Positions 20,360 to 44,202 of a DNA stretch of 64,000 bases are shown here, piece after piece (the stretch's first letter is position 1; each line of letters starts with the position of its first letter). The notes beneath the pieces were generated by a model that saw nothing but the letters and a program-made list of their open reading frames with translations, did not search any database and was not told the DNA's origin. A program made the position numbers and the translations under genes. Source of the DNA: Ruania alkalisoli (lineage in GTDB: Bacteria > Actinomycetota > Actinomycetes > Actinomycetales > Beutenbergiaceae); assembly GCF_014960965.1 (NCBI RefSeq), contig NZ_CP063169.1, positions 281,581 to 345,580 on the forward strand, written 5' to 3'.

Positions 20360-20581
20360 CTATCGATGCCCGATCGGGCGTCCATTCCTGGTGACGTGCC
20401 ACCGGTGCTGCCCGTCGGCGCCTTGCACCGGCTCGATGGCTACCCGGGTGGTGAGTTTGCCGGCCACGGCCAGTGCGCCGCCGATGGCGACGAGGGCGAG
20501 GAACCAGTAGAGACCGGTCGCGGCGGTGAGTCCGAATCCGGTTGCGGCAAGAGTTGCTGAGTTGGCAGGGCCGCTGTACAT
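20360..20581 (-). CDS. small single-pass membrane protein
   Basis: A 73-residue protein. One hydrophobic segment, from about residue 17 to 40 (GLTAATGLYWFLALVAIGGA), is followed by a basic C-terminus ending NGRPIGHR. AAGGAG lies 10 nt before the ATG. It follows the GT2 gene on the same strand by 85 bp and may be a small partner of that membrane glycosyltransferase. No known family was recognised. Confidence 0.6.
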   Translation of the reverse strand: MYSGPANSATLAATGFGLTAATGLYWFLALVAIGGALAVAGKLTTRVAIEPVQGADGQHRWHVTRNGRPIGHR

Positions 20582-20666
20582 GAAGAGACGTCGCTCCTTC
20601 GTTCGTGATGCTGGTGGTTTGTCGCTGTTCTGTTGTTCTGCAGTGGACTTCTTGTGCGTCAGGTGC

Positions 20667-21815
20667 TCACGTGTGGACCCACTCTCCTTTCCTGCCCGAG
20701 AGGAAGCTGAGTGCTGCGGCGCAGAAGATCAGCAGGAGGAAGACGTTGTAGAACGGCTCCACGGTGAGTGTGAGAATCCGGGCGCGCCGGCCCATGCGCC
20801 AGACCATCGCCATGTTCGCCAGCAGGATGCACGCGGCCAGGCCCGTCCACCACGGCGAGAGTGAGAGTGTCCCCAGTCCCAGCAGGATCGCCACGAGCAG
20901 CACGTGCGCAGCGACCGCCAGCACGGACAGTGCCAGGCCCGCCTGCTGGCGCCAGTACACCCAGCGCATGTGCCAAGGCATGCGGGAGCCGTAGGCCTGA
21001 AGGTTCCGCAGTGCGCCGAGGTACCAGCGGTGGCGCTGCTGCCACAACATGGAGGGTGTGTCCATCACATCGGTGGTCGTTGTCATCTCCACCGGAGACA
21101 AGCACTGGTAGCCGCACGCCAGCATCGCGAAGGTGAGCTCGTTGTCCTCGGTGAGGCTGAAGGTGTCGTAGAACGAGGCTCCGGACGGAAGGGTCTCACC
21201 GTCGCGGGCGGACTTGACGGCGTTCAGTGCCTGCACGCTGATCAGCGCCCCGGTACCGCTCAGTACGAAGGCCCGTTCACCGCGCTGCACGATCTCGCGC
21301 CGGTACCGGTAGTACTCCATGCGTTGCAGGTACCCGATGGTGGAGCGGCACTCGCGGCCGATGAATGCACCGCCGACCCCGCCGACCTTTCCTGTCAGCC
21401 GTTCGGAGGCTATCTCGATGAACGTCTCAGAGAGGGTGGTATCGGCATCCATCGCCAGCACCGCGTCGGAGTCCTCCAGCAGTGGCACCACGAACTCGAG
21501 TGCCATGTTCAACGCACCGGCCTTCTTGTCCTTGTTCGGTTCGGCGAGGAACACCAGGGCGCCGTGTTCGCGCGCGACGTCCTCGGTCCCGTCGGTGCAG
21601 TTGTTGGCGACCACCACGGTCACCGTTGGCTGCACGGATTGCTGCGCGATGCTGTCGATCGTCGCCGCGATCGACCCGGCCTCGTTGTAGGCGGGGATGA
21701 GAACGACGATCCGGCGCGCCTCGGAAGAAGCGGCGAGCCGTGCGGCGATCTGCGACCTGTCGTCGATCGTGTCGCCGCGGAGTGTCGTGGTGGGCGATGG
21801 GGCAAGCGTGGTCAC
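20667..21815 (-). CDS. processive-type family 2 glycosyltransferase
   Basis: A 382-residue membrane glycosyltransferase. GT2 motifs in order: LIPAYNEAGS (nucleotide-sugar site), NNCTDGT, MDADTT (metal-binding DxD), SLTEDNELT (catalytic ED region) and QQRHRW (the Q/RxxRW motif of polymerising enzymes such as cellulose, chitin, hyaluronan and PNAG synthases). Three or four C-terminal helices follow. It is divergent from the sigma-factor gene and belongs to the envelope cluster. The sugar donor cannot be deduced. Confidence 0.9.
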   Translation of the reverse strand: MTTLAPSPTTTLRGDTIDDRSQIAARLAASSEARRIVVLIPAYNEAGSIAATIDSIAQQSVQPTVTVVVANNCTDGTEDVAREHGALVFLAEPNKDKKAGALNMALEFVVPLLEDSDAVLAMDADTTLSETFIEIASERLTGKVGGVGGAFIGRECRSTIGYLQRMEYYRYRREIVQRGERAFVLSGTGALISVQALNAVKSARDGETLPSGASFYDTFSLTEDNELTFAMLACGYQCLSPVEMTTTTDVMDTPSMLWQQRHRWYLGALRNLQAYGSRMPWHMRWVYWRQQAGLALSVLAVAAHVLLVAILLGLGTLSLSPWWTGLAACILLANMAMVWRMGRRARILTLTVEPFYNVFLLLIFCAAALSFLSGRKGEWVHT

Positions 21816-22149
21816 GGGGTCCTTTTCGTCAGGTCTGGGCGTGTGTTCAGTCGCTGCCTGTGAGAGGAGCTATCGGCCGCCGCGATGACGCGCCCCTGGT
21901 ATGACCTCCGTCACGCGCCTGGATCAGTTCCGACTCCGGGTTCCCGCCCGTTCGGTGGCTCCTCCGGACGGTGTTCAGTTGCAGGTGCGCTGGCTAGGCT
22001 GAGAACCGCGGCAGGGGGGCGCCTGTGATGTGGAGCACACTCGCGTCACGATTCGATGCGTCGTGCGTGACATGGGCGGCAGGTCCCGGTGCCCCGAGGC
22101 TCCGCAGCTCAGCGCGCGCGAGCGCGCTCACAAGTCAGATTCGGATCTC
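21816..22149. other. divergent intergenic region, GT2 / sigma factor
   Basis: This 334-bp stretch separates the leftward GT2 gene from the rightward sigma-factor gene. Apart from the CRP-like site at 22024-22039 no clear promoter, RNA or repeat was recognised. In-frame codons upstream of the chosen sigma start (from 22030) lack the look of a conserved domain. Confidence 0.5.
22024..22039. promoter_or_regulatory. CRP/GlxR-like site upstream of sigma-factor gene
   Basis: TGTGATGTGGAGCACA fits the TGTGA-N6-TCACA pattern with one mismatch in the right half. It lies about 110 bp before the chosen start of the sigma-factor gene. A second such site lies at 24131-24146 in the same cluster, which raises its credibility. 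Confidence 0.45.
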
Positions 22150-24099
22150 ATGAACAACCCACAGCAAAGGCAGAGCGGGCCGTTCGCCGAGCGCTCAGAC
22201 GACGAGCTGCTGGCGATGGTTCGGGCGGGCGACACCGCGGCCTACTCAGCGCTCTATCGTCGGCACCGGCACGGTGCGGTGCGGTTCGCGCAGCGTTTCG
22301 GCGACTCGCACGAGGCGCAGGACGTCGTTCAGGAAGCGTTCCTGAAGGTCCTCAAGATCATCGACTCCGGTGGAGGTCCGCGGGAGGGATTTGTGGGTTA
22401 CCTCATGCGTGCTGTCCGGAACGAGTTCACTGACCGATCCCGTCGAGTACGGGAGGTGCCGGTCGACGATGTCGAGGCGTCGGCGGCTGCCGGTGAGCAG
22501 GTCGTGCCCGACGGCGTCGACCAGATGCTTGAGCGTGGCCTGGTCACCCGAGCTTTCGGCTCGTTGCCGAAGAACTGGCAGGAGGTGCTGTGGCTGACCG
22601 AGGTCGAGGGGCGGACTCCGCGTGCACTGGCCACCCAGATGCAGCAGAGCCCGAACGCCGTGGCCCAGCTCTCCCGTCGAGCTCGTGAGGGATTCCGGAC
22701 GGCGTGGCTTCAGGCGCACGTGAGCGTCGCCTCCGCAGATGCCGAGTGCCGTCGCAGTGCCGGCATGCTCGGGGAGTACGAGCGAGGTCAGCTGAGCCCA
22801 ATCCGCGTGTCGCGCGTCGAGGCGCATCTCGAGGGCTGTGCGAGCTGTGCTCAGGCGCTGGCCGAACTTCGTGACGTGTCGACCCGGATGCGCGGTGTGC
22901 TGGCCCCGGTCGTGCTTGCCTCACCTGCGTTGCTGACAGACCTGGCGAGCACGATCTGTGCTCCGGATGCCCCCAAGGCAGCACAGAACAGTGGCTCGAC
23001 GGCCGGCGCGGAGACGGTGCTGAGCTCAGCGACCACCTCAGGTGCGGCAGCGGCCAGCTCGGGACCCGGCGCAGCTGCTGGAGCCGGAGCGGCCTCGGCC
23101 ACGCGCATGGTGCTTCCTTCGTGGCTACGCAATCCGGGTCGGGCGCGTCGTTGGGTGACCGTCGTCACCGGAGCCGTCGTCGCTGTGGCTGCGGCCATTG
23201 TCGTGGTGACGGATGCCCCGTCCGCGGACGAGCCGGCTGCCGCCCATGGGCCTCGGACGCTGGCACCGATGCCGGGCGGTTCTGGCGGGCCGGACCCAGC
23301 CGACGCCGACGAGACTCCACCCGCAGACGCTGCCACGGACCGCGCACCGGGAGATGACACCGAGAGCGAGGTCGCCGAGGCCGACGCAGCATCAGCGTCG
23401 CAGCCGGCGCCTCCGCTGACGGCAAGACGTGCACCGCCGGAGCCCGTGCCGGCCGCCGAACCAGGTGGAGTTGCCGAGCCTGAACCAGAACCGGAACCCG
23501 AACGGGAGCCGGAACCCGAGCCTGAACCAGAGCCGGAACCGGAACCTGCGCCGGATGCGCCGACAACGACCTTTCCGGCAGCGGGGAGCTATTCCTACCC
23601 GATCGAACTCTCGGGCACGGCCGAGCCGGGCGCGTTGGTTCGGATCCTCGATGGCGCCGGCGCCGAGGTCGCCACCACCACGGCCGGCACGGACGGAGCC
23701 TGGAGCGTCACCCCTGCCCCCGGGGCACCCGACGTCGCCATCAGCTACCAGGCACTGCAGGAGGTTGACGGCGTGCCCTCCGCGCCCAGCGAGGCCACCG
23801 CGGAGTACACCTATGCGGCGCCTCAGATCCTCCAGCCAGGTGATGGAGCCACCGTCGAGCGGGTCGAAGCAGGGGGCGGCACCCTGACCGTCTGGGCGCG
23901 AGTGGCCGTCCCTGCCAATCACGGATACCAGGTTCTGGTCGACGGCGAAGCCACCTACTTCCCGCCTGCGGAGAACGACCGCGAGATCGACCATTTCATC
24001 CCCATGGATCCCGGGGAACACACCCTCGCTGTCCGGTTCAACGATGCGGCGACCGGTGAGCTGGGGGCTGTGCGGGAGTCGACGTTCACGGTGGTCTGA
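22150..24099 (+). CDS. ECF sigma factor fused to anti-sigma-like zinc finger, membrane helix and outer domain
   Basis: About 649 residues from the ATG at 22150; the ribosome site is weak, so the start is uncertain. Residues about 15-75 are sigma region 2 (DDELLAMVRAGDTAAYSALY), and about 130-190 are region 4 (SLPKNWQEVLWLTEVEGRTP). A zinc-finger anti-sigma motif follows (C, then VEAHLEGCASCAQAL, giving the H-C-C ligands). A membrane helix lies at about 334-356. Outside the cell come a Pro/Glu-repeat rod at about 440-470 and Ig-like beta domains to the end. Sigma, anti-sigma and sensor in one chain suggests regulated release at the membrane. Sigma factors with such extensions are known in Actinobacteria; this sensor domain is not recognised. 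Confidence 0.85.
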   Translation: MNNPQQRQSGPFAERSDDELLAMVRAGDTAAYSALYRRHRHGAVRFAQRFGDSHEAQDVVQEAFLKVLKIIDSGGGPREGFVGYLMRAVRNEFTDRSRRVREVPVDDVEASAAAGEQVVPDGVDQMLERGLVTRAFGSLPKNWQEVLWLTEVEGRTPRALATQMQQSPNAVAQLSRRAREGFRTAWLQAHVSVASADAECRRSAGMLGEYERGQLSPIRVSRVEAHLEGCASCAQALAELRDVSTRMRGVLAPVVLASPALLTDLASTICAPDAPKAAQNSGSTAGAETVLSSATTSGAAAASSGPGAAAGAGAASATRMVLPSWLRNPGRARRWVTVVTGAVVAVAAAIVVVTDAPSADEPAAAHGPRTLAPMPGGSGGPDPADADETPPADAATDRAPGDDTESEVAEADAASASQPAPPLTARRAPPEPVPAAEPGGVAEPEPEPEPEREPEPEPEPEPEPEPAPDAPTTTFPAAGSYSYPIELSGTAEPGALVRILDGAGAEVATTTAGTDGAWSVTPAPGAPDVAISYQALQEVDGVPSAPSEATAEYTYAAPQILQPGDGATVERVEAGGGTLTVWARVAVPANHGYQVLVDGEATYFPPAENDREIDHFIPMDPGEHTLAVRFNDAATGELGAVRESTFTVV

Positions 24100-24130
24100 G
24101 CCCCGGACAAACCGCGCCATCCCACTGGTC

Positions 24131-24146
24131 TGTGATGCACACCACA
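24131..24146. promoter_or_regulatory. CRP/GlxR-like site upstream of secreted Ig-like protein gene
   Basis: TGTGATGCACACCACA matches TGTGA-N6-TCACA except for one base. It is 103 bp before the ATG at 24249, inside the 149-bp gap between the sigma factor and the next gene. Confidence 0.45.
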
Positions 24147-24248
24147 AGGCTGTTGCGTCATTGTCACGCTTGTTCTGCGTGAAGGGGGGCAGAGCGGCGT
24201 TACCGCGACAGGTGGCGCTGCGACCCCTTCATCGAACGGAGCATCGTC

Positions 24249-25337
24249 ATGCCCAGAAACCGGGCTCTCGTGGCCGCTGGTCTCGCTCTCCTCGTGCTGC
24301 TGCTCGCCGTTCCGGCCGTCGCACCTCAGGCCCTGACGGCGTGGGCGCGACCTGGCACCACGAACGACAGTCACGCAGAGCCCGTCACGTGGTCGGTCAC
24401 CGTGGACGAAGCGGCGACCAGTCGCTGGGGCACCTTCGACGTGGCCCTCACGTGGACGGACCCGGCCGCGAGCACCCGCGACGGATTCGTCCTGGACCTT
24501 CCTGCAGAACTGGTCCCTCTGACGGACACCTTCGACGTGCGTGCGGCCACCGGACAGGTCGTGGCGAGGGCCGCCGTCGACGATGGGGCGCTCACGCTCA
24601 CCTACACCGATCATGCCCTCGGAACTCTCACCGGCACAGCCACTTTCGTCGCCGGATGGGACGACGGCCCCAGCCCGGGTGAGGACATCACTCTCACGTT
24701 CTCGGCCGTGGGTACCACGGTCGACGTGGCGATCAGCCTTGATGCGGAGGATGAGGACTCACCCGGCCCGCGCCTGTATGGCTACTGGCGCGACCGCGCC
24801 ATCGAGGACACCGCATCACCAGAGGCAGCATTGCAGTGGCGGGTAGTCACCGGACGTGGCCCGGTGCGCGACACGGTCATCGATACCGAGCTCGGTGACG
24901 GCCATCGACTCGATTGCACCGGCATCACTGGCCGCCTGCAGACCGCGTTCGAGGCGAACGGGGATGCGTCCGCAGCCCATGACCTGCCGGCGGGTGCCCT
25001 CGACGTCGTCTCCTGCGATGGGTCCGGCTTCACGGTCGATCTACCCGAGGTCGAGCCCGGCACGGCCCTGATGGTCCTGTTCTCCAGCACAGTCACCGAC
25101 CCAGCGAGAACGGACTACTCCACCTCCGCTGGCTTCGCCCCCGGCTCTCGCGACCTGAACAGCACGATCGAACGCGCTACGAGCATCGGCACCGGGAGTG
25201 TCGCCGTGAGCGAGCCCACCGCCGGTGCGAGCCAGCCGCGCGCCTTCCTCCAGTCGCCTGGCTGGCTCTGGCTGCCGCTGGCCCTGCTGGCTCTCGGCGG
25301 CTCGACCCTGCTGTACCGGCTCGCGCGCCGCCGCTGA
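24249..25337 (+). CDS. secreted Ig-like adhesin-type protein with C-terminal membrane anchor
   Basis: A 362-residue exported protein. A signal peptide (RALVAAGLALLVLLLAVPAV) leads to two beta-sandwich domains. The first, from WSVTVDEAATSRWGTFDVAL, resembles the Ig-like adhesin folds seen before SdrD- or collagen-binding-type repeats. The C-terminus has one hydrophobic helix (SPGWLWLPLALLALGGSTLL) and a basic tail YRLARRR. No LPxTG motif precedes it, so it is a membrane-anchored surface protein. GGAG precedes the ATG. It is followed by the PIG-L gene after 56 bp. Ligand unknown. Confidence 0.7.
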   Translation: MPRNRALVAAGLALLVLLLAVPAVAPQALTAWARPGTTNDSHAEPVTWSVTVDEAATSRWGTFDVALTWTDPAASTRDGFVLDLPAELVPLTDTFDVRAATGQVVARAAVDDGALTLTYTDHALGTLTGTATFVAGWDDGPSPGEDITLTFSAVGTTVDVAISLDAEDEDSPGPRLYGYWRDRAIEDTASPEAALQWRVVTGRGPVRDTVIDTELGDGHRLDCTGITGRLQTAFEANGDASAAHDLPAGALDVVSCDGSGFTVDLPEVEPGTALMVLFSSTVTDPARTDYSTSAGFAPGSRDLNSTIERATSIGTGSVAVSEPTAGASQPRAFLQSPGWLWLPLALLALGGSTLLYRLARRR

Positions 25338-25393
25338 CCGCAGTCCGGCCCCGTTCCCGCTCAGCACATCTCCAGAAGGAAGCAGTCGACGTC

Positions 25394-26293
25394 ATGCACC
25401 ATGCCCTCACCCTGGTCCTGTCCATCCTCGTCCTTGCCGCCGTGCTCACTCAGGGCGAGTGGATCTCGCGGCACGTGCGTTACGCCCCGGCGGTGCGTGC
25501 TGCCGCTGTCACCATCGTCGCGCTCCTCATCCCGGCCAACGCCCAGGCGCTCTGGGTCGCCCCCGGATCTCCGTTCGCGGTGGTCGTGGCAGTCGCCTCG
25601 GTGGCGCTCCTGATCGGTTATGCCGGGGCGATCGTGCTACTCCGCTTCGCCGCCCCTCCGGTGGCGGCGCCACGTCGCATCCTCGCCATCGGGGCCCATC
25701 CGGACGATCTCGAGCTTGCCTGTGGAGGTGCGCTGGCCAAGTTCGTCGATGCCGGCCATGACGTGCACGTGCTGGTGATGAGCCGCGGCTCCGTCGGCGG
25801 CGACCAGGGCGAGCGCATTGTCGAAGCCCGCCGTGGTGCCAGCTTCCTCGGAGCCCAGAGCGTGGTCGTGCACGACTTCCCGGACACGATGCTGCAGGAG
25901 GTTGGTCAGGGGCTCGTCGCTGCCATCGAGGCGGCCATCACACAGGTCTGCCCAGATGTGATCCTCACCCATTCGGCGCACGACCAGCACCAGGATCACG
26001 CGGCCGTACACGCTGCGACGCTGCGCGCGGCTCGTACCCAGTCCACGATCTTGTGCTACGAATCCCCGTCGGTCACTCGCGACTTCAACCCGAGTGTGTT
26101 CATCGATATCGCCGACTATCTCGACATCAAGGTGCAGGCGGTCCGGATGCACCGGGACCAGTCCGGCAAGCCGTACATGAGCGCCCAGCGGCTGCGCGGG
26201 GTGGCGACGTTCCGCGGTGCGCAGGCGAAGCGGCAGTTCGCCGAGGCCTACGAACCGGTCCGGCTGCTCGGATCCGCGGTGGGAGACCTGTGA
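25394..26293 (+). CDS. membrane-anchored PIG-L family deacetylase
   Basis: A 299-residue protein with two or three N-terminal hydrophobic segments (residues 5-90) followed by a PIG-L/LmbE domain. The zinc-binding motif is AIGAHPDDLELACGG (near residue 100), and the second metal region is HSAHDQHQDHAAVHAAT. Family members remove acetyl groups from N-acetylglucosamine units, as in GPI and mycothiol synthesis. Here the membrane tether and the adjacent polymerising glycosyltransferase suggest deacetylation of a membrane-linked glycan precursor. The stop overlaps the next ATG by one base. Confidence 0.87.
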   Translation: MHHALTLVLSILVLAAVLTQGEWISRHVRYAPAVRAAAVTIVALLIPANAQALWVAPGSPFAVVVAVASVALLIGYAGAIVLLRFAAPPVAAPRRILAIGAHPDDLELACGGALAKFVDAGHDVHVLVMSRGSVGGDQGERIVEARRGASFLGAQSVVVHDFPDTMLQEVGQGLVAAIEAAITQVCPDVILTHSAHDQHQDHAAVHAATLRAARTQSTILCYESPSVTRDFNPSVFIDIADYLDIKVQAVRMHRDQSGKPYMSAQRLRGVATFRGAQAKRQFAEAYEPVRLLGSAVGDL

Positions 26294-27174
26294 TGCGCGT
26301 TCTGGTCACCGGTTCCGGCGGGCCGGCGGGCCGCGCCCTCATCGCGATGCTGGCCGAGCGGGGCCTCGACGTGCTGGGCGCCGACATGGCTCCGGTCATG
26401 GGGCTGCCGGTACCGACAAGGCGTCTCCCGGCTGCCGCGGACCCGCTGTTCCTGACCGAGCTGGGCGCGCTGGTTGAGTCGGAGTCGATCGACCTGCTCG
26501 TCCCGACAGTCAGCGAAGAGCTGCCGGTCCTCGCCTCGGCGGTCGCGCGTGAACTCTGGCCCCATGCGTGCGGCGTGGTCATCGGGGAGGCCGATGCGGT
26601 TCGTGCTGCCGATGACAAGCTCGTCACCGCGCAGCGTCTACGCGCAGCGGATGTGAGCGTGCCGCGGTTCGCGCGGCCCAGCCAGCTCTCGTCCGTGGTT
26701 GAGGCGACGTCCTGGTGGGGTGCACCGATCGTCCTGAAGCCGCGGGTTTCCCGTGGCGGGAGGGGCGTGCACCTCCTCAGCTCCGACCGGGATCTCGACT
26801 GGCGGATGATCGGCGACGATCAGATCGTGCAGGAGTTCGCTCCAGGGATCGAGTATGCACCGGTGGTCTACCGACCTCGTGCTGGGGCGTCCGGTGATGT
26901 GACCGTCGTCCTGGAGAAGAGTGCGGCCGGTGACCGGATCCGCCGCGTGGAGGCGCCGGACGTCGCTGCGCTCGCACTCCGGGCGGCCGGGGCGCTCGGC
27001 TTGACGGGGCCGGTCGACGTCGACGTCCGTCGCGACCCGGCGGGACGGCCCGTCGTGCTCGAGGTCAACGCCCGCGTGGGTGCGAACGTCGGGCTCGCTC
27101 CGGAGCTCGTGGACGCCATGCTGGCCGACCATGCGCGACTCGCGCAGGAGACCGGGCCGGCGTGGGTGACGTGA
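26293..27174 (+). CDS. ATP-grasp ligase
   Basis: A 293-residue protein. The N-terminal segment MRVLVTGSGGPAGRALIAML is a PreATP-grasp Rossmann fold. The ATP-grasp core follows, with VLKPRVSRGGRGVHLL (ATP-binding Lys and glycine loop), IVQEFAPGIEY, and DVDVRRDPAGRPVVLEVNAR (metal-binding Glu and Asn). This is the pattern of carbamoyl-phosphate-synthase-like and peptide-ligase-like enzymes that activate a carboxylate and join it to an amine. Between a deacetylase and a glycosyltransferase, amidation of a freed sugar amine is an attractive hypothesis. It overlaps the GT2 gene by 13 bp when the GTG at 27162 is used. Confidence 0.87.
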   Translation: MRVLVTGSGGPAGRALIAMLAERGLDVLGADMAPVMGLPVPTRRLPAAADPLFLTELGALVESESIDLLVPTVSEELPVLASAVARELWPHACGVVIGEADAVRAADDKLVTAQRLRAADVSVPRFARPSQLSSVVEATSWWGAPIVLKPRVSRGGRGVHLLSSDRDLDWRMIGDDQIVQEFAPGIEYAPVVYRPRAGASGDVTVVLEKSAAGDRIRRVEAPDVAALALRAAGALGLTGPVDVDVRRDPAGRPVVLEVNARVGANVGLAPELVDAMLADHARLAQETGPAWVT

Positions 27175-28562
27175 TCGACGTGGCCGGGGCGGGCGCCTCG
27201 GCGGTCCTCCTGTGGGGTGGGCTCGCACTGATGGTCTTCGGCATCGCCAAGCTCGTGATGGTGCCGCTCGCGGTGGCTTTCGAGTGGCGGGAGCATCGGC
27301 GCTCACGCCGCGGTCACCACACCCTCCTCAACGAGAAGCCATGGGTCTCGGTGATCGTCCCCGCGTACAACGAAGGGCCGGTACTCAACGGCTGTGTGCG
27401 TTCCCTGATCACTAACGGGTACGAGCGCCTGGAGGTGGTGATCGTCGACGACGGATCCACCGACGACACCCCCGCGGTGGCCGCTGAGCTGGCCGCGCGC
27501 TACCCGCAGGTGCGCCTGGTGCGGCAGGAGAACGCCGGCAAGGGGGCAGCGCTGAACCGGGGCATTGCCGTTGCGGGCGGGGAGGTCCTGCTGTTCGTCG
27601 ACTCCGATGGGATCTTCGCTCCCGGCGCGGTGGCGGAGATGCTCCGCGGATTCGATCGCCCGGACGTCGGTGCCGTGTGCGGGGACGACCGGCCGGTGAA
27701 TCTGAACCGGATCCAGACCCGCCTGCTGGCGATCCTCTCCCACGCCGGCACCGGCATGGTCCGGCGCGCCCTGACGATGATCGGATGTCTGCCCATCGTC
27801 TCAGGCAATGTCGGCGCCTTTCCCCGTGAGGTGATCTCCGAGATCGGCGGCTTCGACGAGACCACCGTGGGTGAGGACCTGGAACTGACGTGGCGGGTGC
27901 ATCGCGCCGGATATCGCGTGGTGTTTCGTCCGCGCGCCCTGGTCTACGCCGAGTCACCATCGACGATCCGTACGCTCTGGCGTCAGCGGGTCCGGTGGGC
28001 GCGGGGCCTGCTCCAGACGATGCGCATCCATCGATCGATGATCGGGAACCCGCGCTACGGCGCATTCGGAATCTACCTCGTTGTCAACACCCTGACCATG
28101 ATCGTGATGCCGCTGCTGCAGCTGCTGGTGCTGACGTCGCTGCCGGTGGTGAGCGCCGTCGGTACCGTCCCTGTTCAAGGTTCCACCGTGGCGGTCCTCG
28201 GGTGGCTCGGAATCGCCGTCTCGCTCGTGGTGGTCGGCTTCGCCACGCTGCTCAACCGGGCCGCACGGGATCTGCGCCACCTGTGGACCGTGCCGCTGTG
28301 GCCGGTCTACGCGACAGCCCTCGCAGCAGTGATGGCGTGCGCTCTGTGGAAGGAAGCGCGCGGCGGACCTGCGTCATGGAACAAGATGACCCGGACCGGC
28401 GTCGTGAGCGTGCAGGACCTGCGCGAGCGACCCGCGCGCGAGCCGGTGAGTGTGCGGGCGTCACCGCCGGTACTGGTGCGCCGTGCTCCCCGCCACCGCC
28501 TGGCAGTCGACGCTTTTGGTGAACCTGGACGCACGTATAGGATGCGCGGGCGGGCGGCGTAG
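27162..28562 (+). CDS. processive-type family 2 glycosyltransferase (PgaC/IcaA-like layout)
   Basis: A 466-residue membrane glycosyltransferase. An N-terminal helix is followed by the GT2 domain with VIVPAYNEGPV, VDDGSTDDT, FVDSDG, GEDLELTWRVHRAGY and the polymerase motif QRVRW. Three or four helices follow from residue 295 on, and the C-terminal tail is basic. The layout is that of poly-N-acetylglucosamine and hyaluronan synthases. A GTG at 27162 with GGAG 11 nt upstream is used; a GTG at 27171 overlapping the upstream stop is also possible. It is the second such enzyme in the cluster. Confidence 0.9.
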   Translation: MGDVIDVAGAGASAVLLWGGLALMVFGIAKLVMVPLAVAFEWREHRRSRRGHHTLLNEKPWVSVIVPAYNEGPVLNGCVRSLITNGYERLEVVIVDDGSTDDTPAVAAELAARYPQVRLVRQENAGKGAALNRGIAVAGGEVLLFVDSDGIFAPGAVAEMLRGFDRPDVGAVCGDDRPVNLNRIQTRLLAILSHAGTGMVRRALTMIGCLPIVSGNVGAFPREVISEIGGFDETTVGEDLELTWRVHRAGYRVVFRPRALVYAESPSTIRTLWRQRVRWARGLLQTMRIHRSMIGNPRYGAFGIYLVVNTLTMIVMPLLQLLVLTSLPVVSAVGTVPVQGSTVAVLGWLGIAVSLVVVGFATLLNRAARDLRHLWTVPLWPVYATALAAVMACALWKEARGGPASWNKMTRTGVVSVQDLRERPAREPVSVRASPPVLVRRAPRHRLAVDAFGEPGRTYRMRGRAA

Positions 28563-28634
28563 CGCCCGGCGCCGAGCCGGCGCGGTGGCTGGCAGGCATG
28601 TGCATGTCGGCCACGGCAGGTGAGGAGACGTTGA

Positions 28635-31073
28635 GTGACGGAGGCCGGCCACGGCGCACTCAGGCGCTCGTCCCTCGTGTCGACGTTCGAGCAGCTGGGG
28701 CCCGGGTCGGTGGTCATGATCAGCGGACCATACGGCAGCGGGCGAGGCACGCTGGTCCGGCAGTGGCTGGCTGAGCAGGGGCTGGACTCGGTCTGGTGGA
28801 ACACCGCGCGTACCCTCCCTCGTATCACCGAGGAAGAGAAGGAGACTTCCGCGGATGTCGTGGTCGTGCGACTGCACGACGGCGGCACGCACGATGTGGA
28901 GTCGATCCTTGCCTGCCGCGCGAGGTGGCCGGAGGCGATCCTCGCTGTCATCAGTCCCTATGGGTGGCCCGACGGGTTGCGTTCGGGACCCCTTCGACCC
29001 GAAGTGGTCGTCTCGGCGCACGACCTGGCCTTCTCGGCTGACGAGGTCGCCTCGTGGGCATCCGATCTCGGCGTCACGGTCTCCGCGACGCAGACTGCCT
29101 CGATCATCGACGCGACCGGTGGGTATGCCGTGGTGGTGGACGCCGTCGTGCGCCGTGCCGCCGTCGAGGGAGGGTACTCTCCGGATACTCTCGCCCGTGG
29201 TTGTGACGAGGCGGTATCTGACCTCTCTGCCGCCGCTTCTGGCGGTGTGGTGCCCTGGGATCTGTGGGAGGTGTCGCTGCTCACTGCATTCGGCGGCTCT
29301 CTCGCGCCAGTGGTCATCGAGACGCTGTGGGCCCGGGCGCGGCAGGGGCCTGCCGCGCTACGCGTGATGCGGGACAGTGGCGTGATCGCCGATGTGGCCG
29401 ACGGCAGACTCGGCCTGGCCCCCGGAATCCGGGCAGCGTGCCGGCGCCGGTTCGGCACCGACCTCCCGCACGACCGGCACTGGCAGATCCTTCACCCGCT
29501 ACTCGACCGGTGGGCGGCTGCTGGTCACCTGGACGATGCCACGACCCTGATGGGAACCACAGATCTGGACGGTGCCCGTACTCAGCTCATGGCCCGGCAC
29601 TGGACCCGTCTCGCCGAACTTCCCGCGCCCGCCGTGCGGGAGCGGCTCGCGAATATCGGGCCCCATTCCGACCCACATCTGCTCGTGGCGTTGAGCCGCG
29701 CGATGATTGATGTCTCCCACCCAGGCCATCCAGGGGAGATCTCCGTGCGCGACAGGGAGCGCGCCGGTGCGCTGCTCGCGGAGGCGACGGCCACCGGAGG
29801 GCTCGACGTGCCAGCCGTTGCCATGGCCACGGCACTCCACGCTGTTGTCCTTCGTGCACGCGGGCGCCATGACGACGCCTATGCCCTGCATGAGCACACC
29901 GTGGACGATCCCGGGCATGTCGCGTCGGCGCAGGCTGGCGTCACACTCCAGGCGGGTTTGAGTGCGATGTCAGTCGGTGCGTTGCCACGAGCGGGCGAGC
30001 ACTTCGGTGCCGCGGCTCAGCATGCCAACGAGGCGGGGCAGCCGCCTGTGGCCGCCATGGCCACCGAACTCGAGGAACTCGTGTACATCCTCGGGGCAGA
30101 CCCGGCGCAGTGGTGGCGGCGCACGAGACTCCAGACCGCGACATCGTCAGGCTGGCACAAGGTCACCCGCCTCGTCCGCCTCGTCCGTGCTGTCCGTACC
30201 GTCGACGTGGCAGCGATGCTCGAGGCGCGTGCGGATGACACCGAAGCCGCGACCGTGGACGACCCAGTGGTGATCGACCTGTTCGCCTGGTGCTTCCAGG
30301 CGATGGCCCTGACCCTCCTGGACCGCCCGCACGTAGCGCTGACCCACACCCAGGTCCTGCAGACGGCGCTCGCCGATGGTGAACTCTCCGCTTTCGAGCA
30401 GCGCATGCTGGTCGTCGCACGGGCCGAGGCTCTCTCAGCGAGCGGCGATCCGGCCGCGGCGCTGGAGTTGCTGGCAGAGCACTATGGCGAACCAGACCAT
30501 CGCTACGACGTCGAGCTGCTGCGTGCCCGCGCAGAGATCGACAGCGGTGAGTACGCCGCAGCGCTCACCCGGATCGAGCGGACTATCGCCGGGCACGACG
30601 GACACCTCGGCAGGCATACGGCCTGGGGACACGTGTTGCTGGCGATCGCCCACCGCGGGGTGGGTTCGGCGCGTGAGTCGGACCGTGTGCTGGAATCGGC
30701 GCTCGCGGCCGCGGCCCGCAACGGTCAGCGGCAGCCGTTCGCACGACAGGGCCTGGATGAGTTCGGGCGGCTGATCGCACAGGGACAGCGGCTGGCGCTG
30801 GATCCAGTGACGCATCAGTTCCTGACCGAACTGATGTCCACGCGTGACATGCTGCGCGCGGTCACGGCGCCCGTCACGCTGACCACGCGCGAGCGGCTCC
30901 TGCTCGAACGGCTCGTCCGGACTGAAGGGGTACGGCGTCTCGCGGGGGAGCTGCACGTCTCGCCGAACACTGTGAAGTCTCAGTTGAGGACGCTCTACCG
31001 CAAGTTGGACGTGTCCTCCCGGGCGGAGGCGATCCGGGTGGCGCAGGCGATGAGGCTCGTCCCGCTGACCTGA
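28635..31073 (+). CDS. large LuxR-type (LAL/MalT-like) transcriptional regulator
   Basis: An 812-residue regulator. A P-loop GPYGSGRGT lies at residues 31-39 of the NTPase domain. The middle 550 residues are helical and repeat-like, as in MalT sensor domains. The C-terminal LuxR HTH spans about 742-806: TLTTRERLLLERLVRTEGVR, LHVSPNTVKSQLRTLYRKLD, SRAEAIRVAQ. Several Walker B candidates exist, none certain. GAGGAG precedes the GTG. It sits between the glycan genes and the large surface-protein gene and probably controls one or both; three 11-bp direct repeats lie just downstream. Confidence 0.87.
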   Translation: MTEAGHGALRRSSLVSTFEQLGPGSVVMISGPYGSGRGTLVRQWLAEQGLDSVWWNTARTLPRITEEEKETSADVVVVRLHDGGTHDVESILACRARWPEAILAVISPYGWPDGLRSGPLRPEVVVSAHDLAFSADEVASWASDLGVTVSATQTASIIDATGGYAVVVDAVVRRAAVEGGYSPDTLARGCDEAVSDLSAAASGGVVPWDLWEVSLLTAFGGSLAPVVIETLWARARQGPAALRVMRDSGVIADVADGRLGLAPGIRAACRRRFGTDLPHDRHWQILHPLLDRWAAAGHLDDATTLMGTTDLDGARTQLMARHWTRLAELPAPAVRERLANIGPHSDPHLLVALSRAMIDVSHPGHPGEISVRDRERAGALLAEATATGGLDVPAVAMATALHAVVLRARGRHDDAYALHEHTVDDPGHVASAQAGVTLQAGLSAMSVGALPRAGEHFGAAAQHANEAGQPPVAAMATELEELVYILGADPAQWWRRTRLQTATSSGWHKVTRLVRLVRAVRTVDVAAMLEARADDTEAATVDDPVVIDLFAWCFQAMALTLLDRPHVALTHTQVLQTALADGELSAFEQRMLVVARAEALSASGDPAAALELLAEHYGEPDHRYDVELLRARAEIDSGEYAAALTRIERTIAGHDGHLGRHTAWGHVLLAIAHRGVGSARESDRVLESALAAAARNGQRQPFARQGLDEFGRLIAQGQRLALDPVTHQFLTELMSTRDMLRAVTAPVTLTTRERLLLERLVRTEGVRRLAGELHVSPNTVKSQLRTLYRKLDVSSRAEAIRVAQAMRLVPLT

Positions 31074-31101
31074 CCCGTCTCAGTCCGCGACCATCAGCGT
31101 C

Positions 31102-31130
31102 TCACCCTCGCTTCACCCTCGTTTCACCCC
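31102..31130 (+). promoter_or_regulatory. three direct repeats at 11-bp spacing before surface-protein gene
   Basis: TCACCCT or TCACCCC elements begin at 31102, 31113 and 31124, that is one per helical turn, about 110-130 bp before the surface-protein start. Heptamers spaced 11 bp apart are the usual binding pattern of activators that stack on one face of DNA, as for SARP proteins. The neighbouring LuxR-type regulator is the natural candidate here (inference). Confidence 0.5.
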
Positions 31131-31234
31131 AGGTGACTCTGGCCCTGCGTCAGGGTGCGGAGTTGGATGGGCTGCGGGTGGCTGTTGTGTGCCACCCGTC
31201 GAGAGCACCGCCGGGTGCGGGGGAGGACAAGTTC

Positions 31235-34200
31235 GTGCACATGGAACGACGGATCGGCCGGCAGGCGGCCGCAGTGGCGGCGACGACGGCCCTGGTCGGT
31301 TCGATGATGGTCGCCGTAGCCGGAGCTGCAACAGCGACCACGGGCGACGAGATCACCGGCTCTGTCTGGCAGGACTACGACGCCAACGGGACCTTCGACT
31401 CCTACGAGGACGGTCTCGCAGGAATCGAGGTGGTCGCCTATGACGCCGACGGGAACGTGGCCGGGCCGGTCACCACCGCCCAGGACGGGACCTACGCACT
31501 CGCGGTGACTTCGGACGCTCCCGGATGGCGAGTGGAGGCGAACCTCCCGGATGGCCCGCAGTGGGACCAGTGGCGACCCGCCGCGGTCGGTCGCGCGGGA
31601 GACCCGTCCAACGGGACCACGGTGCAGTTCGTGACGGTGACCGATGGCGCAGGCGTCGATGGGGTGGACTTCTCATTCCACGTGCCGACGGCCTATGTGG
31701 AGAACGACCCGCTCGTCTACATCCCGGTGCTGCAGGCTGGGGTTTCCGACGGCGCCTCCGCCGATCTGCCCGGCTCCGCCGTCATCAACTGGACGGCGGA
31801 GAACGGTGGCTCACCGGTACCGCAGAGCGGCGTGGTGCCGTTCAGTGAGATCGGGGCCACCAACGGTTCGGCGATGGTGCGCGCAGAGTCCTCCGATGAC
31901 ATTCCCACGGCCTTCGCGGCCGCCTACCTGCGGCGCCACGTGGGCTTCGGTCCTGGCGGCATCGGCGCCATCTACCGCGTGAGCCCGGACGGCGCGGACT
32001 GGACGGCACCGACGGCGTCCGCTGAGCTGTATGTGGACGTGACCGACTACGGCATCGATCTCGGCGGACCGGACCCACTCGCCGACCCCACCGATCCCGA
32101 CGGGCTCCGCCCAGATGTCACGGCAATGAACCCCGGATACGACTGGGCGCGTGATGCCCAGGCATGGAACAACGTCGGACGTGCCGGCCTCGGTCTGATG
32201 GCCATGAGCCCGGATGAGCGCTACCTGTTCGTGGTCAATCTGCACAACCGCTCCATCATCCGCATCGATACCGGAGGGGATCCCTCAGCGGCACCGGTCG
32301 CGGTTGAGGAGTTCGAGCTGGACGGGACCTTCCCGGACTCCTCCGACGTGCGCCCCTACGGCGTCACGGTGGATCCGCTCACCGGGACCATGTACCTGAC
32401 GGCGACGGATACGGCCGAGTCCACGCAGGACTACACGGACCTGCATGGCTACGTCTATTCCTTCGGCGCCGAGGCGCCTGGATCCCTGACGCCGGTGCTG
32501 GACTTCCCGCTCGACTTCGACCGGGATGACTTCACCGATCACTTTTTCCCGTGGGCCACCGAGCTCAGTGACTACACCTCGACCGACAGTCGCCAGGGCG
32601 GGACGGCGCCGGCGGTCCAGGACCATGGCAACGGAACGGTCTCGGTCTTCATGCCGCAGCCGATCGTGGCATCCGCCCAGGTGCTGCACGGTGACCTCGT
32701 GCTCGGGGTCCGCGACCTGGCCGGCGACATCTTCGCCATCCAGACGAACCTCTCCGGTGACCCCGCAGACCCGGACGCGAGACTGCTCGCTCACGAGCGG
32801 TCGGAGGGCGATGTCTTCATCGCCGCCCCGAACGGAGATGGCACGTTCGCGCTGGAGAACGACGGCGTCCACGCCGGCGTCGTCGGGAACGGGGCGCTCC
32901 AAGGAGACCTGGGCCCGGGCGGGCTCCGGTACTTTGACACCGGCTACACCCCGTTCAACCAGGACAACGAGTCCACCGGATCGATCGTGGTGATGCCGAG
33001 CCGCCCGGACGGGATCATGACGACCGGCATTCACGTGGCCAACGGCGGTCTGCAGGAAGGTACTCGTCGTCTGTTCCAGGACTCCGGTGCCGCCTACGAC
33101 CCGGCAGGAGCGCTGATCCGGAGCACCAGTGGAACCATGGTGACGTCCAAGGGCAACGGCCTCGGAAATGCCACCGTGCTCGCGTCGGCCGCCCCGATCG
33201 AGATCGGCAACTACGTCTGGTACGACGTCGACAACGACGGTGTGCAGGATCCGGACGAGACACCGGTCGAGGGCGCGACGGTGAACCTGTACGAGGTCGC
33301 CGGGGACGGCACCCGGACCCTCGTCAACAGCACGACGACAAACGCGCAGGGTGAGTACTACTTCTCCTCCTTCGACGAGGCGTACCAGCTGGCGACCAAC
33401 ACCGACTACGTCGTGGGGGTGGACAACCCGGACGATTACGCGGCTGGTGGTCCGCTGGAGAACTGGTACCCGACGGTGCCGGACACCGGTGACGACGCCT
33501 CGGTGGACGCTGATCGCAACGACTCCGATGGTCTGGTCGAGGAGACCGCTGACGGGTGGTTCCCGTTCGCCGCGATCACCACCGGTGGTCCCGGGGAGAA
33601 CGACCACACCATCGACTTCGGCTATTCGAACATCGACTACGAGTTCGACAAGCGGACGGTCTCCGGGCCGACGCAGTCTCCCGAGGATGACGGCACCTGG
33701 GTACTCGAGTATGAGCTGATCGCCGAGAACACCGGTGCGATCGACGGTGCGTATGGCCTCACCGATGACCTCACCGGTTATGGCGACGGCATCATCGTCA
33801 CCGACACTGAGGTGGTCTCGGGTCCGGACGGTGCGGCGTTGAACCCGGACTGGGACGGCGTCGATGACATGCGCGTGATCACCGAGGGCATGCCGATCAC
33901 GGCTGGCTCCACGGTGGAGAACGAGAGCGAGCACGTCTACCTGCTCCGCGTGACGGTCGCGCTCGAGGCTGATGCCGACACGAACGAAGCCCTTGTGGAG
34001 GCCGAGCAGCTCGCCTGCCGGGAGGGCCAGACCTCGGGCGACGAGGTGCCTACGACCGGCTTGTTCAACGAGGCCACCATGGAACCGGACAATCACAGCG
34101 CGTTCGTCGACGACGAGTGCGGTGAGTTGCCGAAGGTCGTCGTCGACAAGAGCGTGACAAGCGAACCGGCCGTCGTCGACCCAGAGACCAATCCGGGTGA

Positions 34201-36109
34201 GTACACCATCACCTACGGGCTGACCGTCACCAACGAGACCGACGTGGCCACCACCTATGACCTGACCGATTCGCTCCGGTTCGGTGAAGGTATCGAGATC
34301 GTGGAGGGGTCGATCACGACCCGAGCGCTGGACCCGGCCGACACGGTCCTCAACGCCGCCTATGACGGTGTGATCGACGACCTGATCGTCGGCGATGTGC
34401 CGATCGAAGGCGGTGCCGTGCACACCTACGAGGTCTCCGTCCACTACACCGTCGACCTACCCGAGCGCGCCGAGGGCGATGTGGCGCCGGATCCGTCGGC
34501 CTGCCGGGACGAGGCCACGCTCGACACTGATGAGGTCACGGGTCTGTACAACCAAGCATCCACCTCATTCAATGGGTATCGCGACTACGACGATGAGTGC
34601 CGTGAGGTGGGTGAGGTCACCCACGACAAGGAGCTCCTCTCAGCGGATCCGGTGGGTGAGGGCCAGTGGGAGATCCTCTACCAGATCGAGGTGAGCAACG
34701 AGGGTGTCGAGCCCGTGGGCTACGACCTGGATGACGAGTTGCACTTCGGCGAGGGCATCGAGGTGGTGAGTTCCGCCGTCACCGGGACCCCGGACGGGGT
34801 GACCCTGGCGGACCCGGCGTGGAACGGGCAGGAGAACACCCGGATCGTCTCCGAGGTCTCGATGCCGGGCACTGACGATGAGGGATATACCCCGCACGTG
34901 TACGAACTGACCGTGCTGGCGGACGTGCCGCTGAACTTCGCCGATGCGGTCGACGGCGTTGACCCAGCGACGTGTGGCGAGGGTGTGGTCGACCATGCCG
35001 ACCCACAGGCACGCGCGTTCCTCAATGTCTCGCACCTGAGGGACGAGGCGGGTGCGACCGAGGACGACGACGCGTGCGCAGCGCCGCCGGAGCTGGTGAT
35101 CGACAAGACTGTAGACGCCGGATCTCCGGTGCCGCAGGGCGATGGCACCTGGTTGGTGACGTACGGCCTTGAGGTGTCCAACACCGGCGGCATGGCCGGG
35201 GAGTATGACCTGGTCGATGTGCTGCTGTTCGGTGATGACGTCGAGGTGCTCAGCGCCGGGGTGACGACCGCTCCTGAGGGCGTGGATGTCAACGATTCCT
35301 GGACTGGAAGCGAGGCGGAGCTGGGTGGTTCGCTCATCGCCGCCGATGTACCGCTCGATGCCGGTGCCGTGCACTCCTACGAGGTACAGGTGGCCGTCAC
35401 CGTCGCTGACCCGTCCGATCCTGAGTCGGTGAGTGCGGCGTTCACGTGCCCCGAGCCAGGGTCACGGGAGAGCGCCGGACTGAACAACCAGGCGGTGATC
35501 GGGCACAACGATCTGAGTGCTGACGATGTGGTCTGCCCCGAGCCGGCCGTGATCGTGATGGACAAGACCATCTCGTACGGGCCGGATCTGGACGCCAACG
35601 GCCACTACACGATCACCTACCAGATCGAGGTCACCAATCCGGGGGAGAACGAGACCCTCTACGATCTGGCCGACGAGCTCCACTACGGCGACGGGATCGA
35701 GGTCACCGATGCAGACGTCACCTCAGCTCCCGACGGCGTCCAGGTGAACCCTGCATGGACGGGAACGGGTAACGATCTGGTCATCGCTACGTCAGTTCCT
35801 CTCCCAGGCGGAGCAACACATGTCTACACTGTCATCGTGACCGGAATGATCGCCGAGTCTGCGCTGAGCGTAGCCACGATGGCTTGCCCACCCGCCGAGA
35901 GCGCGGGAGAGAGCGGGGGCTTCTTGAATGTTGCCACCGTCACCGGGGCGGGCATCGTGTTGCAGGACGATGCCTGTGCCAGCCCGCCCGACGAGCTCCC
36001 TACCACCGGAGCCGACGGTATGGGCGCCCTCGCGGCACTCGCCGCCCTGACCGCGATCACCGGTGCGGTGCTGGTGGCACTCCGATTCCGGAAGGGACGG
36101 ATCGACTGA
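31235..36109 (+). CDS. large LPTTG-anchored surface protein with SdrD_B and DUF11-like repeats
   Basis: About 1,624 residues. A GTG at 31235 is 8 nt after GGGAGG; the ATG at 31241 is the alternative. A signal peptide covers about 1-35. An SdrD B-type domain follows (GSVWQDYDANGTFDSYEDGL). The region at about 150-650 looks like a beta-propeller (MSPDERYLFVVNLHNRSIIR). A second SdrD B domain lies near 655 (GNYVWYDVDNDGVQDPDETP). Five DUF11-like beta domains of about 160 residues follow, each opening with a xxDKxxxS-type strand. The C-terminus is DELPTTG (near 1588), a hydrophobic helix and RFRKGRID: a sortase sorting signal. It is probably an adhesin or stalk protein. Confidence 0.9.
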   Translation: MHMERRIGRQAAAVAATTALVGSMMVAVAGAATATTGDEITGSVWQDYDANGTFDSYEDGLAGIEVVAYDADGNVAGPVTTAQDGTYALAVTSDAPGWRVEANLPDGPQWDQWRPAAVGRAGDPSNGTTVQFVTVTDGAGVDGVDFSFHVPTAYVENDPLVYIPVLQAGVSDGASADLPGSAVINWTAENGGSPVPQSGVVPFSEIGATNGSAMVRAESSDDIPTAFAAAYLRRHVGFGPGGIGAIYRVSPDGADWTAPTASAELYVDVTDYGIDLGGPDPLADPTDPDGLRPDVTAMNPGYDWARDAQAWNNVGRAGLGLMAMSPDERYLFVVNLHNRSIIRIDTGGDPSAAPVAVEEFELDGTFPDSSDVRPYGVTVDPLTGTMYLTATDTAESTQDYTDLHGYVYSFGAEAPGSLTPVLDFPLDFDRDDFTDHFFPWATELSDYTSTDSRQGGTAPAVQDHGNGTVSVFMPQPIVASAQVLHGDLVLGVRDLAGDIFAIQTNLSGDPADPDARLLAHERSEGDVFIAAPNGDGTFALENDGVHAGVVGNGALQGDLGPGGLRYFDTGYTPFNQDNESTGSIVVMPSRPDGIMTTGIHVANGGLQEGTRRLFQDSGAAYDPAGALIRSTSGTMVTSKGNGLGNATVLASAAPIEIGNYVWYDVDNDGVQDPDETPVEGATVNLYEVAGDGTRTLVNSTTTNAQGEYYFSSFDEAYQLATNTDYVVGVDNPDDYAAGGPLENWYPTVPDTGDDASVDADRNDSDGLVEETADGWFPFAAITTGGPGENDHTIDFGYSNIDYEFDKRTVSGPTQSPEDDGTWVLEYELIAENTGAIDGAYGLTDDLTGYGDGIIVTDTEVVSGPDGAALNPDWDGVDDMRVITEGMPITAGSTVENESEHVYLLRVTVALEADADTNEALVEAEQLACREGQTSGDEVPTTGLFNEATMEPDNHSAFVDDECGELPKVVVDKSVTSEPAVVDPETNPGEYTITYGLTVTNETDVATTYDLTDSLRFGEGIEIVEGSITTRALDPADTVLNAAYDGVIDDLIVGDVPIEGGAVHTYEVSVHYTVDLPERAEGDVAPDPSACRDEATLDTDEVTGLYNQASTSFNGYRDYDDECREVGEVTHDKELLSADPVGEGQWEILYQIEVSNEGVEPVGYDLDDELHFGEGIEVVSSAVTGTPDGVTLADPAWNGQENTRIVSEVSMPGTDDEGYTPHVYELTVLADVPLNFADAVDGVDPATCGEGVVDHADPQARAFLNVSHLRDEAGATEDDDACAAPPELVIDKTVDAGSPVPQGDGTWLVTYGLEVSNTGGMAGEYDLVDVLLFGDDVEVLSAGVTTAPEGVDVNDSWTGSEAELGGSLIAADVPLDAGAVHSYEVQVAVTVADPSDPESVSAAFTCPEPGSRESAGLNNQAVIGHNDLSADDVVCPEPAVIVMDKTISYGPDLDANGHYTITYQIEVTNPGENETLYDLADELHYGDGIEVTDADVTSAPDGVQVNPAWTGTGNDLVIATSVPLPGGATHVYTVIVTGMIAESALSVATMACPPAESAGESGGFLNVATVTGAGIVLQDDACASPPDELPTTGADGMGALAALAALTAITGAVLVALRFRKGRID

Positions 36110-36120
36110 CTGCACCGCCC

Positions 36121-36978
36121 ATGATCGGCGGAAACCGCACCTGCCCCCTAGCGGTGACCGTCGCCCGGATCCGGTTCCAGACCAGCTCCCCTGCATGGTC
36201 TGGGACCGGATCCACCTCACACCCATCCGTCGGCCGAACCCGTGCCGGCCGGTGGCTTCGGGCGGTGGCCGGCATGCTCCTGCTGGTGCTTGCCCTGACG
36301 GCCTGTGCTGGTGAGACGACGCGCCCGTTGACCACGGCGGAGTCTGAGCTGCTGGCCCTGACGCGGTTCCGCAATTTCGACGCCGGCGTGCGCAGCGTCT
36401 CCTTCGCGGTCACCGATGCTGGGACGCGCTACGAGATCGACGCCTGGGTCGATTTCCAGGCCGGAGCAGGGTATGGGACGGTTCAGCTGCCGGACGCCGA
36501 GGAGTCAGCACTCCTCGCGTGGACCAGTCAGGGCGTCGCCACTGCGGCAACCGCTCCGACCGGTCCGGCGCCGCTGCCTCCCCCCACTCAGGGCTGGACA
36601 TCGTCGGAGCTGCTGCCCGGGCAGTCTCGATTGCACGCTGTGCTGGCTGTGCTCCTCAGCCTCGGTAGCGATCGGCCCGACAACCCGGTGCTGCTCGCCC
36701 AGACCGACGCTCGGTGGCTGCGGGAAGACTCCGTCGCGGGCACTGCGGTGACAGTCTTTCGAGGGCCGTCGTCAGATGCCCCGGCCGGGGCCGGCAGCAC
36801 CACCGGCACCCCCGCCCCGTCCGGGCCGGATGAGAGCGGGGCAGCCGAGGTGCGCTACTGGGTGGCCGACGACGGCGTCCTGCACCGGCTCGAGGTCAGC
36901 CTCGGGGGTGATCAGGACGCGGTGGTCATCGACCTCGACGATGCCGATGTGACCTTCGACCTCTCCCAGCTGCAGTGA
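36121..36978 (+). CDS. putative lipoprotein, function unknown
   Basis: About 285 residues from the ATG at 36121; the start is uncertain because no ribosome site is evident. A hydrophobic stretch, AGMLLLVLALTACAG, ends in a lipobox, but it lies about 50 residues from this start, so a nearer start such as the GTG at 36153 may be used. The mature part has beta strands (VRSVSFAVTDAGTRYEIDAW, VRYWVADDGVLHRLEV) reminiscent of LolA/LppX-like lipid-binding lipoproteins. It begins 11 bp after the surface-protein stop and is probably co-transcribed. No family was firmly recognised. Confidence 0.6.
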   Translation: MIGGNRTCPLAVTVARIRFQTSSPAWSGTGSTSHPSVGRTRAGRWLRAVAGMLLLVLALTACAGETTRPLTTAESELLALTRFRNFDAGVRSVSFAVTDAGTRYEIDAWVDFQAGAGYGTVQLPDAEESALLAWTSQGVATAATAPTGPAPLPPPTQGWTSSELLPGQSRLHAVLAVLLSLGSDRPDNPVLLAQTDARWLREDSVAGTAVTVFRGPSSDAPAGAGSTTGTPAPSGPDESGAAEVRYWVADDGVLHRLEVSLGGDQDAVVIDLDDADVTFDLSQLQ

Positions 36979-44137: not shown

Positions 44138-44144
44138 GGAGCCA

Positions 44145-44172: not shown

Positions 44173-44202
44173 TCACGAAGAAGTGGCAGAGAGGAGAGTC
44201 CC

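Follow-up and report, generated by a model that had tools for sequence, protein, structure and literature searches.

Gene organization of the locus

The window, by which we mean the whole 64,000-nt stretch of Ruania alkalisoli DNA that was analyzed, carries on its plus strand, in the 5′ to 3′ direction, genes for a sigma factor, a Big_8-like protein, a PIG-L family protein, an ATP-grasp protein, a GT2 enzyme (designated GT2b), a LuxR-type regulator, and an SdrD_B-repeat protein, followed by a lipoprotein-like ORF, as judged from the ORFs and from Pfam and NCBIfam searches. The three core genes encode a PIG-L family N-deacetylase (positions 25394–26293; PF02585, E = 4.3e-26), an ATP-grasp ligase (26290–27174; PF02655, E = 7e-10), and the PgaC-like GT2b (27162–28562; PF13641, E = 9e-36). 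They overlap pairwise by a few bases: the start codon of the ATP-grasp gene, either GTG at 26290 or ATG at 26293, overlaps the PIG-L stop codon, and the ATP-grasp and GT2b genes share 13 nt, so that the three are probably translationally coupled. The overlapping order PIG-L, ATP-grasp, GT2 described in the original prediction is real by these ORFs and domain matches.

Upstream of the core, on the same strand, the sigma gene (22030–24099) encodes a single fusion of an ECF sigma factor, a zf-HC2 anti-sigma domain, and a C-terminal Ig-like domain (PF04542, PF13490, and PF17936), and the next gene (24249–25337) encodes a secreted Big_8-like protein with a C-terminal membrane anchor, whose match to PF17961 (E = 1.5e-4) is just under the cut-off. 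Downstream, also on the plus strand, lie the genes for a large LuxR-type (MalT-like) regulator (28635–31073; PF00196, E = 3.5e-10) and an SdrD_B-repeat surface protein (31133–36109; PF17210, E = 1.9e-22). The latter is the predicted LPTTG protein, and it does exist: it has 1,658 aa, and its C-terminus reads LPTTG, a hydrophobic stretch, and RKGR. The lipoprotein-like ORF ends at 36978. The minus strand carries a second GT2 gene (20667–21815; PF13641, E = 2.9e-20) and, according to the ORF and domain scan, a GH16 gene (19265–20239). Searches of the window genome gave three sortase matches and four PIG-L matches, the PIG-L of the triad being therefore one of several. In a FastTree phylogeny of PIG-L domains, which left out a few sequences lacking the searched motif, the triad and sister groups were separate from the remaining PIG-Ls found in this genus.

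Conservation of the triad

A scan of genome contigs yielded six relatives of the PIG-L, and in five of them (an Isoptericola MAG, Propionibacteriaceae P6A17, Naasia, and two Trueperella) the ATP-grasp and GT2b genes followed directly at the 3′ side. In one of these five loci, L008, GT2b runs off the contig end. The sixth relative, from Phycisphaera (27% identity), had no ATP-grasp and GT2b after PIG-L. When 297 genomes of the order were searched at E 1e-20, PIG-L was matched in 32 and ATP-grasp in 30; both occurred together in 23 genomes, PIG-L alone in 9, and ATP-grasp alone in 7 (Fisher p = 3.8e-21, in a test that favors linkage because the ATP-grasp profile, like that of the hydrolase-like protein described below, was built from linked copies). 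An ATP-grasp gene lay within 6 kb at 25 of 35 PIG-L places. The ATP-grasp loci without PIG-L that were inspected (L147–L149, L151–L154, L208, L209, and L211–L213) mostly represent other contexts; in one of them, L147 (genome G090), ATP-grasp and the sigma gene are retained, with no match to PIG-L or GT2.

Genes at the surveyed loci were called with a basic in-house program, which overlooks some of them (for example, in L061, L147, and L157, three loci that were rechecked by tblastn). Fifteen relatives were compared with the window. Each of PIG-L, ATP-grasp, and GT2b was found by tblastn in all 15, some of the loci being short, and in 14 the three genes were adjacent, in the same order and on the same strand, amid unrelated flanks; the exception, L080, has a PIG-L of the receiver-fused type, placed apart. 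The pairwise distances of the three proteins covaried across 12 loci (r = 0.71, 0.72, and 0.78; permutation p = 0.0001). Within the genus itself, the triad-type PIG-L was present in only two of eight genomes, indicating that it has often been gained or lost. A plasmid search gave one close match, on an Arthrobacter plasmid whose record is unannotated in that stretch; tblastn detected the triad together with the sigma gene there. The triad is therefore a conserved unit in many actinobacteria, more than would be expected by chance. The gene-neighborhood survey proposed with the original prediction thus came out in favor of a single pathway: conserved order, co-occurrence, and covarying distances all support it, the three genes are neighbors in numerous genomes, two sister architectures were found, and the observation that would have spoken against it, a triad not conserved together, was contradicted by its recurrence in order within unrelated surroundings.

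Flanking genes

The neighbors of the core are far less constant. By tblastn, a sigma homologue was found near the triad in five of the 15 relatives, a Big_8-like protein in three (with an LPHTG signal at the end of the L059 protein), and the LuxR-type regulator and the LPTTG protein in a single relative, the closest one; GH16, the lipoprotein, and gcvP were matched in none of the 15 triad loci, some of which are short. The sigma factor and the Big_8-like protein are thus lineage accessories, and the idea that sigma, LuxR, and LPTTG genes form an integral frame is not supported. Nor is the proposal of two polymerizing GT2 enzymes in one system, since only GT2b is conserved with the triad: the second GT2 lies on the minus strand and gave only cross-matches to GT2b (23–28%) in the 15 loci. 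GH16, the lipoprotein, and gcvP were likewise rejected as members because they are not conserved with the triad.

The sigma factor is likely a regulator. Besides its zf-HC2 and Big_6 domains, hydrophobic and proline-rich stretches are visible in it, and sigma factors of a similar layout are already known as ECF52. In the report on these (PMC5826349), they are described as an ECF domain with a zinc finger, a membrane region, a proline-rich extension, and a carbohydrate-binding domain; the likeness of the window sigma is to this description, and its own C-terminal domain is instead Ig-like.

Properties of the core proteins

The HPDD and HQDH motifs of PIG-L are invariant or nearly so among 13 orthologues, and its closest solved relative is the diacetylchitobiose deacetylase 8bgn (E = 1.7e-23). 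Hydropathy gave three N-terminal hydrophobic segments in 11 of the 13, so that, with the PF02585 match, the membrane PIG-L of the original prediction is confirmed. From hydropathy and the positive-inside rule, the catalytic domain is predicted to be cytosolic, with which the receiver-domain fusions of sister PIG-Ls agree.

The D, DxD, GED, and QRVRW motifs of GT2b (the last including QxxRW) are invariant in 14 sequences, and membrane segments are located at its C-terminus. Its best named family is PgaC/IcaA (TIGR03937), at 191.4 bits, which is under the cut-off of 422.3, and its hhalign match to E. coli PgaC (99.9%) spans 229 columns at 33% identity. Its active site, like that of PIG-L, is predicted to face the cytosol. 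For the ATP-grasp protein, the nearest solved structure is 2pn1, and conserved columns were defined across 14 orthologues. Compared with its relatives, the window copy has a seven-residue in-frame loss in a conserved loop (a 21-nt gap against the nearest relative), and the enzyme may therefore be altered.

Sister architectures and a PgaB-like hydrolase fold

Related gene sets fall into three groups. In group (a), PIG-L is fused to a response-regulator receiver domain (PF00072 in 16 and PF02585 in all 18 proteins scanned), and in most loci this gene is followed by those for ATP-grasp, a protein with a PHP domain, and GT2; many of the loci also have a histidine kinase gene close by. Two loci, L066 and L067, have the receiver-PIG-L and kinase without ATP-grasp or GT2, indicating that PIG-L can act without the rest of the set. 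In L080, the receiver-PIG-L and kinase stand beside ATP-grasp, GT2, and hydrolase-like genes of the window type, suggesting that the two PIG-L types are interchangeable.

Group (b) consists of five loci (L077, L160, L161, L205, and L207) with genes for PIG-L, GT2, an exosortase-family protein, and ATP-grasp, joined by a WecB-like epimerase and a HAD hydrolase in the four that are not cut by a contig end. The exosortases exceeded the TIGR04178 cut-off of 23 bits (L161, 37.4; L077, 28.6; L205, 46.3; L207, 34.2; L160, 37.2) and scored below the cut-offs of the named subfamilies that they matched. The exosortase of L077 is fused to ATP-grasp, and in L161 a gene for a choice-of-anchor P protein precedes PIG-L. 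When 296 genomes of the phylum were searched with a profile built from three of these exosortases, the two that matched had been identified as carriers before, and no exosortase match was found in the window genome. An exosortase in G277 was rejected as a member, being located away from the triad (L171). In group (c), PIG-L lies beside a GH6 protein (L082, L083, and L156), with a synthase-like GT2 also present in L082 and L083.

In six relatives (L007, L060, L061, L064, L065, and L080), a gene located after GT2b encodes a protein of some 390 residues. The structural model of this protein (pLDDT 88) placed PgaB at Foldseek ranks 1–7, and a comparison with E. coli PgaB gave a VIA Z of 28.1 over 321 residues at 3.1 Å, against 25.9 for Cwp19 and 24.6 for GH42. 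At the sequence level, hhalign detected no similarity between the six proteins and E. coli PgaB, and the catalytic aspartate could not be located from a MAFFT alignment, which was too weak for this; the link to PgaB is therefore one of predicted fold, with GH42 folds close behind. The corresponding PgaB domain, which founds GH153, cleaves only deacetylated PNAG, according to the original report (PMC5933820). With a profile built from linked copies, the hydrolase-like protein was found in five of the 297 genomes of the order, always beside this ATP-grasp–GT2 pair, and a profile search found the gene absent from the window genome. A family of secreted proteins shared by L063, L068, L069, and L075 was considered as a glycosidase and rejected: Pfam gave nothing for L068, L069, and L063, a PDB sequence search returned only a capsid protein (E = 0.03), hhalign with PgaB found no match, and the model had a pLDDT of 53.

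A putative pathway for a surface glycan

The surface-glycan role put forward in the original prediction is well supported, and we regard such a role by itself as probable. The PgaC-like GT2, together with sister clusters that contain the PgaB-hydrolase-like protein, an exosortase, or WecB, points to a polymer or to an anchor at the surface, and away from a diffusible thiol. The fuller reading is that a synthase-dependent pathway makes a PNAG-like surface glycan, with deacetylation and amide ligation occurring in the cytosol instead of through an exported CE4 enzyme; it has in our view an even chance of being correct.

The analysis shows the conservation, order, domain content, and predicted topology of these genes, from which we infer the substrates, the order of reactions, and a polymeric product. 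Working on the cytosolic side of the membrane, GT2b would polymerize, or start, a beta-linked N-acetylhexosamine glycan from UDP-GlcNAc and extrude it; PIG-L, on the same side, would N-deacetylate the sugar either ahead of polymerization or while it proceeds; and the ATP-grasp enzyme would spend ATP on joining the exposed amine, through an amide bond, to a carboxylate that probably belongs to an amino acid. The result would be a surface glycan whose glucosamine residues are either free or N-acylated, and in several relatives the PgaB-hydrolase-like protein may trim it outside the cell. Control and use of the core may differ among lineages, through the ECF52-like sigma factor in the window, the receiver domain fused to PIG-L, or an exosortase.

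The same enzymes could instead make an aminoacylated glucosaminyl glycolipid: GT2b would add one GlcNAc to a lipid, PIG-L would deacetylate it, and ATP-grasp would attach an amino acid, the lipid being a component of the surface or an anchor for proteins. Both PIG-L and GT2 are held in the membrane with predicted cytosolic active sites, an arrangement suited to a sugar carried on a lipid; GT2b has further matches to lipid glycosyltransferases (HpnI at 51 bits and ceramide glucosyltransferase at E = 1.8e-5), and the exosortase of the five group (b) loci would suit an amine-bearing acceptor. However, the likeness of GT2b to PgaC/IcaA is far stronger (191 bits), and the hydrolase-like and GH6 neighbors suit a polymer, so that we consider a glycolipid possible but doubtful. 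In hopanoid synthesis (HpnI and HpnK) and in the GPI pathway (PIG-A and PIG-L), a sugar added by a glycosyltransferase subsequently loses its N-acetyl group on the cytosolic side of the membrane; the triad differs from these steps, by a comparison made through the HpnI score only, in its ATP-grasp ligase and PgaC-like GT2.

It is also conceivable, but unlikely, that modification occurs at the level of the nucleotide sugar, with UDP-GlcNAc converted to UDP-GlcN and then to UDP-N-acyl-GlcN, from which GT2b would polymerize a fully N-substituted, non-acetylated glycan. The predicted cytosolic site of both enzymes makes action before polymerization easier than action on an extruding chain, and WecB, an enzyme acting on UDP-GlcNAc, is encoded in four sister loci, whereas the closest solved relative of PIG-L acts, going by its name, on diacetylchitobiose.

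In the synthesis of mycothiol (MshA-B-C-D) and bacillithiol (BshA-B-C), a glycosyltransferase, which belongs to GT4 in MshA and BshA, and a PIG-L deacetylase act before a bond is made to the freed amine. A diffusible small molecule of this kind would involve the same order of chemistry, and the top NCBIfam score of PIG-L is to BshB1. That score (81 bits) is nevertheless well below the BshB1 cut-off of 182.5, the score against MshB was 22.7 bits compared with a cut-off of 224.35, GT2b is PgaC-like and not a GT4 enzyme, and the third triad enzyme is an ATP-grasp protein (PF02655) rather than an MshC or BshC ligase. A small molecule is also hard to reconcile with the membrane segments and with exosortase and glycosidases as partners, making such a product very improbable; of the resemblance to mycothiol assembly that had been proposed, the order of the chemistry stands, and the analogy is otherwise weak. 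As for chance neighbors from unrelated pathways, the patchy distribution (the two of eight genus genomes, and some genomes with one gene only) would be compatible with them, but they are refuted by the recurrent order, co-occurrence, and covarying distances, and can practically be dismissed.

Comparison with known systems and implications

The putative surface-glycan pathway that we favor resembles the PNAG systems pgaABCD and icaADBC in its PgaC/IcaA-type GT2, its predicted GlcNAc deacetylase, and, in six relatives, a protein with a predicted fold like that of the PgaB hydrolase domain (GH153). It differs from them in that deacetylation is assigned to a PIG-L enzyme with a predicted cytosolic orientation instead of an exported CE4 enzyme, in having an ATP-grasp ligase within the core, and in the score of GT2b under the family cut-off. 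No CE4-type deacetylase (PgaB N-terminal domain or IcaB) was matched among the ten window-region proteins scanned. Exosortase-linked exopolysaccharide loci (EpsH/XrtA and XrtG) are another known type, which the five group (b) loci resemble in pairing the core with an exosortase; the sister loci add PIG-L and ATP-grasp to it, and the window genome is without an exosortase match. An actinobacterial PNAG system, MatAB of Streptomyces, likewise couples a PgaC-like GT2 to a deacetylase, MatB having an extracellular CE4 domain, whereas the passages of that report consulted here name no ATP-grasp or PIG-L (PMC5972031). PIG-L and ATP-grasp also do not occur in the main text of a survey of EPS operons (PMC7112194). 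Across the open-licence literature, of which coverage was incomplete, no description of a PIG-L, ATP-grasp, and GT2 set was found, in agreement with the earlier statement that no named system has this set, and the triad glycan system seems to be undescribed so far.

More speculatively, and with little probability, the triad may be a bacterial counterpart of GPI anchoring, in which GT2, PIG-L, and ATP-grasp would assemble a glycan or glycolipid with a free amine on the inner side of the membrane. In one branch a histidine kinase would switch this on by acting directly on the receiver-PIG-L, and in another the product would serve the co-encoded exosortase as the acceptor for surface proteins.

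If the favored reading is right, the triad represents a widespread actinobacterial route to a surface glycan that, unlike known PNAG systems, takes the acetyl group off an amino sugar within the cell and probably puts another group in its place by means of ATP-grasp. The receiver-fused PIG-L would then be a response regulator with a glycan deacetylase as its output, and the exosortase branch would provide a concrete lead to the exosortase acceptor, a long-standing question that could be tested with a handful of genes.

Features of the window

The ATP-grasp gene of the triad (26290–27174, plus strand) differed from its closest relative by the in-frame absence of 21 nt within positions 26850–27000, corresponding to the loss of seven residues from a loop that is conserved in the relatives. 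Elsewhere in the window, two long ORFs on the plus strand (44086–51036) had an identical protein stretch in common and showed strong GC skew, and no Pfam family was found for either of them.

Related architectures

In one group, the PIG-L deacetylase is fused to a response-regulator receiver domain (L070:9797–10873, L066:9676–10779, and their relatives); a Pfam scan matched PF00072 in 16 of the 18 members. A histidine kinase gene often adjoins the fusion gene, and in L066 and L067 the kinase is its sole partner. In other loci (L082, L083, and L156), the PIG-L gene is adjoined by a gene for a GH6 protein, with a synthase-like GT2 also close by in the first two. Among the exosortase-type clusters, the ATP-grasp enzyme at L077:12304–14382 carries an exosortase-family domain fused at its N-terminus, and a rho termination-factor gene lies near the cluster in both the L205 and L207 genomes.

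Triad genes elsewhere

The sigma factor, PIG-L, ATP-grasp, and PgaC-like GT2 genes were all present on the Arthrobacter plasmid StoSoilB13-2 (L157, 13035–17815), a stretch that is without annotation in the plasmid record. At L147, in genome G090, the sigma factor and ATP-grasp genes were retained and neither PIG-L nor GT2 was matched; this locus is apparently a remnant.
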